Assembly: GCA_946415375.1 (NCBI GenBank)
Contig: CAMKSF010000016.1
Coordinates: 1-33,100, forward strand
Direction: 5' to 3'
DNA: 33,100 nucleotides
DNA from: an uncultured Clostridia bacterium
GTDB taxonomy: Bacteria; Bacillota; Clostridia; TANB77; CAG-508
Shown here: positions 11,466 to 32,821 of the stretch, piece after piece
Layout of the letters: each line of letters begins with the position of its first letter
Numbering within the stretch: the stretch's first letter is position 1
Position numbers and translations under genes: made by a program
Notes under the pieces: model-generated
Databases searched by the model: none
What the model was told of the DNA's origin: nothing
What the model saw: only the letters and a program-made list of their open reading frames with translations

Positions 11466-11493
11466 TTGTCGAAAAGTGTCAAATTTTGCGATG
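11466..11493 (+). promoter_or_regulatory. Phased Spo0A boxes upstream of small RNA 1
   Basis: TGTCGAA (11467-11473), a perfect Spo0A box, is followed after AAG by TGTCAAA (11477-11483) and, after TTT, by TGCGATG (11487-11493). Starts are exactly 10 bp apart, the geometry of tandem Spo0A dimer sites such as that at abrB (7-mer, 3-bp gap, 7-mer). The last element ends 18 bp before the -35, as in copy 2. Confidence 0.6.
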
Positions 11494-11511
11494 AAAAGAA
11501 TTCTTAAAATA

Positions 11512-11540
11512 TTGACTTTTTCCAAATTTTGTAGTATTAT
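11512..11540 (+). promoter_or_regulatory. Sigma-A promoter of small RNA 1
   Basis: TTGACT (11512-11517), a 17-base spacer and TATTAT (11535-11540). No open reading frame follows before the terminator at 11583. Confidence 0.7.
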
Positions 11541-11546
11541 AATTAT

Positions 11547-11619
11547 AGACAATAAAAATGTATTAAATGAGCATTTACATCAAAAATAACCTCGCTGTCA
11601 AGAAGCGAGGTTATTTTAT
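11547..11619 (+). ncRNA. Predicted ~70-nt antisense RNA 1 (antitoxin-like)
   Basis: It runs from the promoter at 11512-11540 to the GC-rich hairpin at 11583-11617. Bases 11556-11581 are an imperfect direct repeat of 11669-11695 (AAATGTATTAAA, GCATT and ACATC shared). That makes this RNA complementary to the ribosome-binding/start-codon region of the reverse-strand peptide mRNA. Size, convergent layout and shared terminator match RNA II of the Fst/par locus of Enterococcus plasmids. No transcript data are available; ends are predicted. Confidence 0.65.
11583..11617. terminator. Shared bidirectional terminator of module 1
   Basis: A 14-bp perfect stem, AAAATAACCTCGCT against AGCGAGGTTATTTT, with the 7-base loop GTCAAGA. 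It ends the + strand RNA and, read on the other strand, the peptide mRNA. The stem is identical in module 2 while the loop differs. Confidence 0.85.
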
Positions 11620-11622
11620 GTA

Positions 11623-11688
11623 TTAATTATCTAATTTTGCAATTAAATAAATTAATACAATTGCAATTAAATGTATTAAAGTATGCAT
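11623..11688 (-). CDS. 21-residue hydrophobic peptide 1 (candidate type I toxin)
   Basis: 22 codons including stop. ATG 11688 is preceded by AAGGAGGTGAT, a near-perfect Shine-Dalgarno sequence. The peptide is almost all Leu/Ile/Val/Ala from residue 4, with Tyr14 and a charged end, and finishes IYLIAKLDN. The paralogue at 18107 finishes VYLIAKLDK. A single membrane helix of this size recalls type I toxins such as Ibs or the core of Fst. A sigma-A promoter (11765-11737), a conserved 5' stem-loop (CTCTT/AAGAG) and the bidirectional terminator define a ~150-nt mRNA. Toxicity is inferred, not known. Confidence 0.7.
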   Translation of the reverse strand: MHTLIHLIAIVLIYLIAKLDN

Positions 11689-11736
11689 TCACATCACCTC
11701 CTTAAAAAGATACTCTCTTAAAAAGAGGCACTAATA

Positions 11737-11765
11737 ATTATATAATGGAAAGTGACAAAAATCAA
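11737..11765 (-). promoter_or_regulatory. Promoter of peptide 1 mRNA
   Basis: On the reverse strand TTGATT (11765-11760), a 17-base spacer and perfect TATAAT (11742-11737). The -10 lies in the palindrome ATTATATAAT, whose other half could serve ylmH on the + strand. The same -35, spacer length and -10 occur in module 2. Confidence 0.7.
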
Positions 11766-11774
11766 GAAAAATCG

Positions 11775-11791
11775 TTCGACAAAAATCGACA
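11775..11791 (-). promoter_or_regulatory. Tandem Spo0A boxes upstream of peptide 1 promoter
   Basis: On the reverse strand TGTCGAT, TTT, TGTCGAA (11791-11775): two boxes 10 bp apart, the nearer one perfect, 9 bp upstream of the -35. Module 2 has TGTCGTT, TCC, TGTCGAA at the identical distance. Site and spacing match known Spo0A dimer operators; binding is not demonstrated. They also lie just before ylmH and could affect it. Confidence 0.6.
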
Positions 11792-17954: not shown

Positions 17955-17972
17955 TTGTCGAATATTGCGATG
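17955..17972 (+). promoter_or_regulatory. Phased Spo0A boxes upstream of small RNA 2
   Basis: TGTCGAA (17956-17962), TAT, TGCGATG (17966-17972). The first box is perfect and the second diverged; starts are 10 bp apart. The second ends 18 bp before the -35, exactly as the corresponding TGCGATG does in module 1. Confidence 0.55.
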
Positions 17973-17990
17973 AAAAGATATTGATTAATA

Positions 17991-18019
17991 TTGACTTTTC
18001 ACCAAAAATGTAGTATTAT
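17991..18019 (+). promoter_or_regulatory. Sigma-A promoter of small RNA 2
   Basis: TTGACT (17991-17996), a 17-base spacer and TATTAT (18014-18019), the same elements as module 1. Confidence 0.7.
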
Positions 18020-18025
18020 ACTAAT

Positions 18026-18096
18026 AGCAATAGTAAACAAAATGTTCATAAGAATTCAAAAAATAACCTCGCTCTTAACCAGCGAGGTTATTTTAA
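18026..18096 (+). ncRNA. Predicted ~70-nt antisense RNA 2 (antitoxin-like)
   Basis: Non-coding stretch between the promoter and the hairpin at 18060-18094. ATGTTCATAAGAATTC (18042-18057) is a direct repeat of 18165-18181 with one base fewer, so the RNA can pair with the start codon and spacer of peptide 2 mRNA. AGCAAT (18026-18031) repeats at 18146-18151, within the peptide codons. The pairing segments differ from those of small RNA 1. Confidence 0.65.
18060..18094. terminator. Shared bidirectional terminator of module 2
   Basis: The same 14-bp stem as module 1 (AAAATAACCTCGCT/AGCGAGGTTATTTT) with a different loop, CTTAACC. Confidence 0.85.
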
Positions 18097-18106
18097 TTGA
18101 TATGTA

Positions 18107-18172
18107 TTATTTATCTAATTTTGCAATTAAATAAACTAATATCATAGCAATTATTTTAGCAATGATGTTCAT
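18107..18172 (-). CDS. 21-residue hydrophobic peptide 2 (candidate type I toxin)
   Basis: 22 codons from ATG 18172, preceded by AAGGAGGTG. Single predicted membrane helix with Lys6 near the start, ending VYLIAKLDK. It shares the LxYLIAKLD ending, length and all flanking signals with peptide 1, which supports both as real genes. The mRNA 5' end has the same CTCTT/AAGAG stem-loop (18203-18215). A long open frame continues upstream, but no start signals there are credible: the promoter at 18250-18222 lies inside that extension. Confidence 0.7.
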   Translation of the reverse strand: MNIIAKIIAMILVYLIAKLDK

Positions 18173-18221
18173 AAGAAATTCACCTCCTTGTAAAGATACT
18201 CTCTTAAAAAGAGGCATTATT

Positions 18222-18250
18222 ATTATAACACCAAAGTAGCTATAAATCAA
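18222..18250 (-). promoter_or_regulatory. Promoter of peptide 2 mRNA
   Basis: On the reverse strand TTGATT (18250-18245), a 17-base spacer and TATAAT (18227-18222) with TG one base upstream. Confidence 0.7.
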
Positions 18251-18259
18251 CAAAAATCG

Positions 18260-18276
18260 TTCGACAGGAAACGACA
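18260..18276 (-). promoter_or_regulatory. Tandem Spo0A boxes upstream of peptide 2 promoter
   Basis: On the reverse strand TGTCGTT, TCC, TGTCGAA (18276-18260), starts 10 bp apart, with the perfect box 9 bp upstream of the -35. Spacing and position are identical to module 1 although the gap bases differ. Confidence 0.6.
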
Positions 18277-18633: not shown

Positions 18634-20224
18634 GTGAAGATAAATAAAAAATCAAAAATAAATAGAAAAAGAAATAGTCGGAATTACTCTTATAGCTTTA
18701 GTTATTACTGTTATTGTCCTTCTCATTTTAGCTGGAATATCAATATCAATGCTATCAGGTGATAACTCTATACTAAACCAAGCAGGAAGAGCAAGAGATA
18801 TAACAGGGGAAAAGTCAATTGCAGAAAGAGTACAAATTGCATATTTAGGAGCGCTAGCGAATGGAAAGGGAAATGTCGAAAGAGCAGATTTGTTAACAGA
18901 ACTAAAAAAAGAATTTGGAGAAGATAAAATAAAAGATGGAGATATAGATGGAGCCTTAACCAAAGTAACAATAGACGGAACTGATTATAACTTTGATGGA
19001 AATTCACCTGGAGGTGGAGGAAGTACACATACAGAAACAGTAAATGGAATAGAGGTAGTAGTTCCAATACCTAGTGGATTTACAAAATCAACTGAAACAG
19101 GAGAAACAAGTGTAGCAACTGGTTTAGTTGTAAAAGATTCAAGCAATAATGAGTATGTATGGATACCAGTATTTGAATATGATAGTACAAAATGTACATG
19201 GGGAGCAGATTATACAAATGTAAGAAGTGCAACAGAAGGTTCGTCGGAATACTATACATCAATAGAAACAGCATTAAAGAATTATACAGCAACATATAAA
19301 GATTCAAGTTATACAGATGTATGGTATGGAAATTCTAGTTATGGAAAATATGGATATTATGATGGAACACAATTTGTATATTATACAAATGGAAATATGA
19401 CTCAGGCTGAATATACAGCTCTATATCACGGAATGTTGAAAAGTGTATATGAAAATGGTGGTTTCTATATTGGTAGATATGAAATGGGAATAGCAGTAGT
19501 AGATAATGTAAATGATGCAAGTACAAATACAAGAGTTGCACTTACAGAATATACACCAAGTAATTCAACATCATCTACAACAAATACAGCTTCAACAAGC
19601 GCAGTCTCAATTTCTGGAATGACAGCACCGTTAAGTAAGCAAAATGCGATAGCATATACAAGAATTACTCAATCACAAGCAGAAATGTTAGCTGAGATGT
19701 TAAATTATAGTGGAGTAACAAGCTCTCTTATGTTTGGAGTGCAATGGGATGCAGTATGTGTATATTTAGAACATTTTGGTAAAATAGATAGTAGTGCAAC
19801 AGCAAGTGGAGGAACAAGTTTTGATTCATCATATTTAACAAGTAATAATTATAGTAAACTTTGGGGAAATTATAAAAATGCAACATTTGTAATGAATAGA
19901 GGATTTTTTAGTACAACATATAGTAACACAACAGCAGTAACTTGGAATCAATATACATCTACTGCAAAAGACACGAGTACAGCATGGCTTTGTACAACAG
20001 GAGCATCTGACCAAAATAGAGCGTGTAATATATATGATTTTGCAGGAAATTTAGCTGAATGGACTCTCGAAAGGTATAGCGATGCGATCCGTCCGTGTGT
20101 CTATCGTGGCAGCGGTTTCAGCGGTAGCGGTTATGCCTCTAGCAGGTACGACGATTACACTAACTTCAGTGGTTACGGCCTTTCAGCTAGGCCCTCACTT
20201 TATATAGGTAGCCCTGTAAGCTAA
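18634..20224 (+). pseudogene. Pilin-like FGE/C-type-lectin-fold surface protein, frameshifted at its leader; DGR variable-protein type
   Basis: The main frame (~520 residues) opens with a prepilin-type helix, GITLIALVITVIVLLILAG, common to clostridial surface proteins processed by prepilin peptidase. A variable central part and a C-terminal formylglycine-enzyme/lectin-like fold follow, with NIYDFAGNLAEWTLE and a terminal RPSLYIG. That is the architecture of variable proteins of diversity-generating retroelements. The leader is broken: AAAGGAG then GTG 18634 starts MKINKKSKINRK in one frame, while EIVGITL is in another, open only from 18662 (TAA at 18659). Removing one A from the A5 run at 18666-18670 restores a perfect fusion. 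Mutation, phase variation or assembly error are all possible. Otherwise the first ATG is 18749, inside the helix and without a ribosome binding site. Confidence 0.7.
20060..20224 (+). other. Putative DGR variable region at the 3' end of the pilin-like gene
   Basis: After TGG 20060 base composition changes abruptly: codons such as CTC, GCG, ATC, CGT, CCG, GTC, GGC, TTC and GCC appear in a gene otherwise full of A/T endings. Between 20075 and 20179 about 20 of 35 codons are TAY, AGY, GAY or GGY, exactly what adenine mutagenesis of AAY codons in a template repeat would give. It encodes the ligand-face end of the FGE fold, where known variable regions lie. GGCCT/AGGCC (20177-20193) forms a stem-loop near the 3' end, possibly part of the homing signal. 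No template repeat or reverse transcriptase is in the window. Confidence 0.65.
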
Positions 20225-32008: not shown

Positions 32009-32821
32009 GTGAAAGAAAAAATCACGGTATTAATTGCGGATGACAACCAAGAATTTAGCAAAACACTTGCCACATATCTTGGAAATGAAAATGATATGGA
32101 GGTAATTGGAATCGCCAAAGATGGTGTAGAAGCAGTAGAACAAATAAAAGAATTGTTACCAGATGTTGCAATACTTGATGTTATAATGCCACATCTAGAT
32201 GGATTAGGAGTATTAGAAAGAATAAATAATAGTAATATAGTAAAAACACCAATTTGTATTATGTTATCAGCAGTAGGTCAAGACAAAATTACACAAAAAT
32301 CAATTGAGTTAGGGGCAGATTATTATGTAGTGAAACCATTTGATATTGAACTTTTGATTAAAAGGATTAGAGAAATAAAGAATTTTAAGCCAACGCCAAA
32401 TAATAGCTTTATAGCAAGAGAAGTTCCTGTAAGAAAGTACATAGAAATAAGTGATAATAAATCACCAGAAAATTTAGAAGCACTTGTTACAAACGTAATT
32501 CATGAGGTAGGTGTACCTGCACATATTAAAGGATATCAATATTTAAGAGAAGCTATAATGATGGTAATAAATGATATTGATGTATTAAATCAAATTACTA
32601 AGAGCCTTTATCCACAGATAGCACAAAGATTTGACACAACGCCATCAAGAGTTGAACGCGCAATTCGCCATGCAATTGAAGTTGCTTGGGGCAGAGGTGA
32701 ACAAGATATGGTTGAAAACATTTTTGGATATACAGTTTCAGCTTCAAAAGGAAAGCCAACAAATTCAGAATTTATTGCGATGATTGCAGATAAGTTGAGG
32801 TTAGAATTAAAGAGTGCATAG
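32009..32821 (+). CDS. spo0A: Sporulation master regulator Spo0A
   Basis: 270 residues. The receiver domain (about 1-120) has the acidic pair in LIADDNQEF, the phosphoacceptor Asp in [13 protein letters not shown], and the conserved Lys in YYVVKPFD. The DNA-binding Spo0A_C domain (about 150-268) carries the diagnostic [20 protein letters not shown], the helix that reads Spo0A boxes. Phosphorylated Spo0A commits cells to sporulation. GTG 32009 has AAGGAGG 9 bases upstream. The usual upstream neighbour spoIVB is absent. Spo0A boxes occur at both modules near 11.5 and 18 kb, so this protein may control them. Confidence 0.97.

Follow-up and report, generated by a model that had tools for sequence, protein, structure and literature searches.

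The DNA block at positions 11466-11791 of the window (the whole stretch that was analysed, 33,100 nt of contig CAMKSF010000016.1) is probably, with a likelihood that we put at about 83%, a chromosomal type I toxin-antitoxin module, which would follow the regulatory plan of par/pAD1 and produce an unrelated, very short toxin. The decisive evidence is the repeat within the putative antitoxin, which co-varies copy by copy with the start region of the toxin gene. The observation made in the earlier note is real and its extent is greater than was stated there, as the module belongs to a large and apparently undescribed family, which is frequent in a single family of uncultured Clostridia from the gut, often with several copies per genome. 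No description of this module family was found in the open-access literature, which was available mostly as abstracts and is weak evidence in this regard, and the core peptide strings had no match in a text search of papers.

Architecture, copies and distribution of the module

Both convergent sigma-A promoters lie exactly where the earlier note had placed them, the antitoxin promoter (TTGACT-17-TATTAT) at 11512-11540 on the plus strand and the toxin promoter (TTGATT-17-TATAAT) at 11765-11737 on the minus strand. The bidirectional terminator between them (11583-11617) indeed has a perfect 14-bp stem with the arms 11583-11596 and 11604-11617 and a loop of 7 nt, and the 21-residue frame, MHTLIHLIAIVLIYLIAKLDN, runs on the minus strand from 11688 to 11623 behind the near-consensus Shine-Dalgarno sequence AAGGAGGTGA. 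With 5' ends deduced from the promoters, the toxin mRNA would comprise about 148 nt (11583-11730, minus strand) and the antitoxin RNA about 71 nt (11547-11617, plus strand). These elements stand as they had been described; overlooked were the direct repeat of the start region, a leader predicted to mask the Shine-Dalgarno sequence, the TGTCGAA boxes on the outer sides of the two promoters and the extent of the family.

Taken by themselves, the promoter matches of copy 1 are at chance level (4 found versus 2.6 +/- 1.7 in shuffled sequences), and the case therefore depends on conservation. We gathered 67 related modules, all from one bacterial family, which have in common convergent sigma-A-type promoters, a shared terminator and a hydrophobic peptide of about 20-24 residues with the core LIYLIxK. 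On the toxin side, 59 of the 67 modules match at 9 or more of the 12 promoter positions, where shuffled sequences would give 5.6; on the antitoxin side 65 of 67 do so, where 15 would be expected. Two covariance models were built for the family searches. In the taxonomic family 24 of the 59 genomes had matches, as did 21 of the 39 genera; in the genus, 24 of 39 genomes were matched by model R2. None of 78 genomes sampled from the rest of the class matched at E 1e-4 under strict filters. The relatives that have names belong to uncultured Clostridia, and several come from animal guts. At one locus (L161, G000:C13:17404), TGTCGAACGGTGTCGAG directly precedes a CTAGTC-type terminator that resembles those of the wider family.

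The earlier note had proposed to look for conservation of the promoter-terminator-peptide block, and this search came out in its favour: the block recurs in relatives and the reading frame is conserved as a coding sequence. Among 15 ORFs of equal length pN/pS is 0.56 overall and 0.37 for codons 9-21, whereas the remaining frames give 0.93 and 1.70. The N-terminal codons that vary are part of the antisense repeat. An alignment of 42 peptides shows that Y-L-I and K are nearly invariant and that the hydrophobic core and the near-consensus Shine-Dalgarno sequence are kept.

The peptide had not been recognised as a member of any family, and this assessment holds. It had no acceptable match among the models of Pfam, NCBIfam, PHROGs and PADLOC, and PF13955 (Fst/Ldr) found nothing in the source genome. 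The model for the type I toxins of C. difficile, NF047374, reached at best 15.2 bits against a cut-off of 60 and did not match any of nine further peptides. In Rfam there was no match at threshold; the weak ones (E up to 10) all remained far under the cut-offs, among them the BsrG model with 10.8 against a threshold of 55. A tblastn search of plasmid and phage sets with the consensus peptide gave no match, for which a query of 22 residues has little power, and a DNA pattern search found none in viral contigs. The tryptophan that characterises Fst/Ldr toxins between membrane helix and charged tail is missing at that position in the aligned peptides, as is the PXXXG motif; the prototype Fst itself has a V in place of this signature W. 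As the Fst/Ldr signature is missing and no library model matched, we do not file the peptide as Fst and reject an assignment to this family, even though its regulation is par-like. Type I toxins are commonly too short for annotation, and these peptides of about 20-24 residues matched no library used. In one separate case (L046:1103-1265 on G041:C19, and also L106), leader, terminator position and start-region repeat are alike but the peptide, MTSYELIFFLIILLLEKDNDKSQD, is unrelated, which looks like an exchange of the toxin.

By DNA search, five copies in the source genome proved to be intact; the window contains two of them, and C20, C1 and C6 have one apiece. A sixth copy, on C12, is degenerate. 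The complete second copy in the window (17956-18276, both strands) has its antitoxin promoter TTGACT-17-TATTAT at 17991-18019 (plus strand), the bidirectional terminator at 18061-18095, the peptide ORF MNIIAKIIAMILVYLIAKLDK at 18107-18172 (minus strand) and the toxin promoter TTGATT-17-TATAAT at 18222-18250 (minus strand). The modules of this genome adjoin housekeeping genes, named from their translations as clpX and ylmH, proS, grpE, sufS and mnmA, and metK. The suf (iron-sulfur) operon also houses modules in five related genomes (L038, L039, L041, L042 and L043), with the toxin on the opposite strand; the shared terminator of these modules would fall inside the operon. Prepilin-like proteins adjoin two of the five copies (window 18749-20224 and L050:2516-4171, the latter protein containing KGITLIALVITIIVLLILAGISISMLSGDN). 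Elsewhere (L184 and L205, G212:C99:2251-3046), three modules follow each other with a spacing of about 320 bp.

Some sites carry only remnants of a module. In the genome G091, ORF and terminator are kept at the orthologous clpX-ylmH site, while the toxin promoter, the leader, the Shine-Dalgarno sequence and the antitoxin promoter are lost; at the orthologous proS site little remains beyond the antitoxin-side end. In these relics the antitoxin has been lost only jointly with toxin expression, which is a prediction of a toxin-antitoxin pair. The degenerate copy on C12 and the locus L111 resemble deletions between the two direct repeats. Two near-identical modules, L097 and L099, have an apparent early nonsense codon in the toxin ORF, and their antitoxin repeat is still recognisable.

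Cognate antisense repeats and the proposed mechanism

Every copy carries, between the antitoxin promoter and the terminator, a repeat of the toxin start region, by which the antitoxin can pair with the mRNA over the start codon. In the duplex predicted for copy 1 (-28.1 kcal/mol), positions 11549-11582 of the antitoxin pair with positions 11697-11663 of the toxin mRNA, i.e. the end of the Shine-Dalgarno sequence, the start codon and the first nine or so codons. Within the source genome, cognate duplexes range from -28 to -36 and non-cognate ones from -11 to -22.

The family offers dozens of natural toxin/antitoxin pairs, in which base-pairing specificity can be read off the sequence. We compared 18 modules that had been selected because their DNA resembles the module, without any filter on the repeat. 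Their repeat alignment score is on average 21.2 for cognate and 10.6 for non-cognate combinations, and the mean duplex energy is -30.1 versus -14.0 kcal/mol. When the pairing was permuted 100,000 times, the observed sums were not reached once (p <= 1e-5). In the larger set the own antitoxin is the best partner in 55 of 67 modules, a result that is supportive only, since this set had been filtered on the presence of a repeat. What generally characterises a type I toxin-antitoxin system, a gene for a small hydrophobic peptide together with an antisense RNA, is thus found here as far as the sequence can tell. The Par/Fst-like regulation suggested by the earlier note is borne out by the conserved block and by the complementarity of each antitoxin to the start region of its own toxin.

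In the leader, the 5' start of the toxin mRNA, CCUCUUUU, is predicted to pair with AAGGAGGU in a hairpin (11696-11729, minus strand) and thereby to mask the Shine-Dalgarno sequence; the fold of the whole mRNA has a z-score of -6.75. Among the 23 modules that form the clade with TGTCGAA boxes (box clade), the paired probability of the Shine-Dalgarno core is 0.91, compared to 0.66 with shuffled leaders, and 22 of the 23 lie above their shuffled counterparts (p 4.5e-6). In the 44 modules outside this clade masking does not exceed that of the shuffles (0.68 versus 0.69). A U-turn motif (YUNR), which is not universal in the par family, occurs in 43% of the toxin terminator loops versus 29% +/- 5% of shuffled ones, a weak enrichment.

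Transcription, toxicity, translational block and control by Spo0A are what we infer for the module from these features. The minus-strand mRNA would encode a membrane peptide of 21 residues, whose overproduction should stop growth. The plus-strand RNA of about 71 nt would act as the antitoxin; the terminator hairpins of the two RNAs are complementary, and the repeat of the antitoxin, which the sequences show to be complementary to the toxin start and to co-vary with it copy by copy, would pair over the start codon and block translation. The toxin leader is predicted to fold on its own Shine-Dalgarno sequence, which should keep the free mRNA silent until the antitoxin binds. As the repeats differ between copies, an antitoxin would be expected to act on its cognate toxin, and several copies could therefore coexist. 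In the box clade, finally, the most likely purpose of the TGTCGAA boxes would be to let Spo0A, the master regulator of spore formation, change toxin/antitoxin output upon entry into stationary phase or sporulation, although this last step is less certain than the toxin-antitoxin reading itself.

TGTCGAA boxes and a possible link to sporulation

Directly upstream of the toxin -35 element of copy 1, two boxes of the 0A type, TGTCGAT and TGTCGAA, lie 10 bp apart (11775-11791, minus strand). Upstream of the antitoxin promoter there is another tandem, TGTCGAA/TGTCAAA, the second box being imperfect (11467-11483, plus strand), followed by a TTTTGCGATGAAAA element (11484-11497, plus strand) that is conserved at the antitoxin promoters of the source genome. 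In 22-23 modules, TGTCGA-type boxes precede the toxin start codon by about 86 to 113 nt, often paired 10 bp apart, and a search over 200 nt found antitoxin-side boxes in only about half of the modules of the box clade. The majority of modules in the wider family have no boxes, and control by Spo0A is therefore not general.

Spo0A of B. subtilis and C. difficile binds TGTCGAA as its core 0A box (PMC3485338). The window itself encodes an intact Spo0A (32009-32821, plus strand; PF08769 with E 7.2e-47, PF00072), a candidate regulator of both promoters. Both sequence features of a Spo0A regulon are present, with TGTCGAA near a promoter and Spo0A encoded in the genome, and Spo0A may bind here. The extended motif of the toxin side is confined to the five toxin promoters of the source genome, whereas tandem boxes with up to two mismatches show only a moderate excess genome-wide (39 versus 23 for a reversed-pattern control). 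Elements of the TTTTGCGATGAAAA type also lie upstream of genes for a PD-(D/E)XK transposase-family protein and a protein without confident family (L069, G000:C47:2222, and L063, G000:C1:81529).

We tentatively propose that Spo0A acts at the toxin and often also at the antitoxin promoters of these multi-copy, antisense-controlled toxins, membrane peptides of 21 residues, so that the sporulation decision might shift the toxin/antitoxin balance genome-wide, for instance to stop growth or to kill a part of the population; on present evidence this is somewhat less likely than not. If true, the boxes would link the sporulation decision directly to chromosomal type I modules, which makes for a testable hypothesis. 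What such modules do is a question that the par field has yet to answer (PMC7472228). The abstracts found describe no Spo0A control of a type I toxin-antitoxin system.

Nearly an even chance has to be granted to the idea that some regulator different from Spo0A recognises the boxes or that they merely serve DNA structure, which would leave the toxin-antitoxin reading intact and is incompatible only with the last step of the proposed mechanism. The extended motifs CGATTTTTCTTG and TTTTGCGATGAAAA exceed the known 7-bp 0A core and point in this direction, but the core agrees fully with the above 0A box, spo0A is present and an antitoxin-type element was found upstream of spoVS. The boxes also bear on a quite different and unlikely explanation, by which the peptide is a small, useful and non-toxic membrane protein that takes part, for example, in envelope stress or in sporulation, its amount being merely tuned by the antisense RNA. 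Besides the boxes of a sporulation regulator, it would account for core chromosomal sites by housekeeping genes, some of them common to different species (suf operon, clpX-ylmH), and for the lack of matches in the plasmid and phage sets. However, many copies with cognate-specific antisense repeats are typical of toxin-antitoxin systems, and the frequent decay, with relics, an apparent nonsense codon and the joint loss of toxin expression and antitoxin, likewise argues against it.

Far less probable still is a non-coding regulatory or mobile repeat, a MITE-like element of TGTCGAA inverted ends and a terminator in which the ORF is incidental. The dispersed copies with 75-83% identity and inverted TGTCGAA ends would fit such an element, as would solitary end-like matches elsewhere in the genus. 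Nevertheless, we reject this explanation, because the ORF is under coding selection and the ends keep a fixed distance from the promoters and are absent from most family members; the near-consensus Shine-Dalgarno sequence and the hydrophobic core maintained over 42 peptides, and two sites common to another species as relics, also speak against it.

Comparison with known type I systems

The toxin-antitoxin reading allows a comparison with three groups of known modules. Those of the TxpA/BsrG type from Bacillus subtilis likewise pair a small hydrophobic toxin with an antisense RNA that is convergent and overlapping, but their toxins have 28-60 residues. Their antisense RNA overlaps the 3' end of the toxin mRNA and is not known to contain a repeat of the start region.

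The type I modules of C. difficile (CD2517.1-RCd8 and others, NF047374) are also found in Clostridia and share overlapping convergent toxin and antisense RNAs, a hydrophobic toxin, several paralogues and cognate specificity (PMC6563280). In contrast, their toxins comprise 34-59 residues, and they are tied to CRISPR arrays, prophages and Sigma B, whereas the modules described here are tied to housekeeping genes and TGTCGAA boxes.

The closest parallels in regulation are with the par locus of the plasmid pAD1 (RNA I/RNA II, Fst) and its chromosomal relatives. The toxin of about 20-24 residues differs, without tryptophan signature, PXXXG or a match to PF13955 or Rfam at threshold, as do the TGTCGAA promoter boxes in one clade and the lack of matches on plasmid and phage sets. 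Convergent promoters and one bidirectional terminator are common to both (PMC7472228). The leader hairpin over the Shine-Dalgarno sequence recurs in the box clade, including copy 1, but not in the rest of the family (PMC7472228). Finally, in both systems direct repeats provide for antisense pairing at the toxin start, and repeats that are poorly conserved between paralogues keep these apart (PMC7472228).
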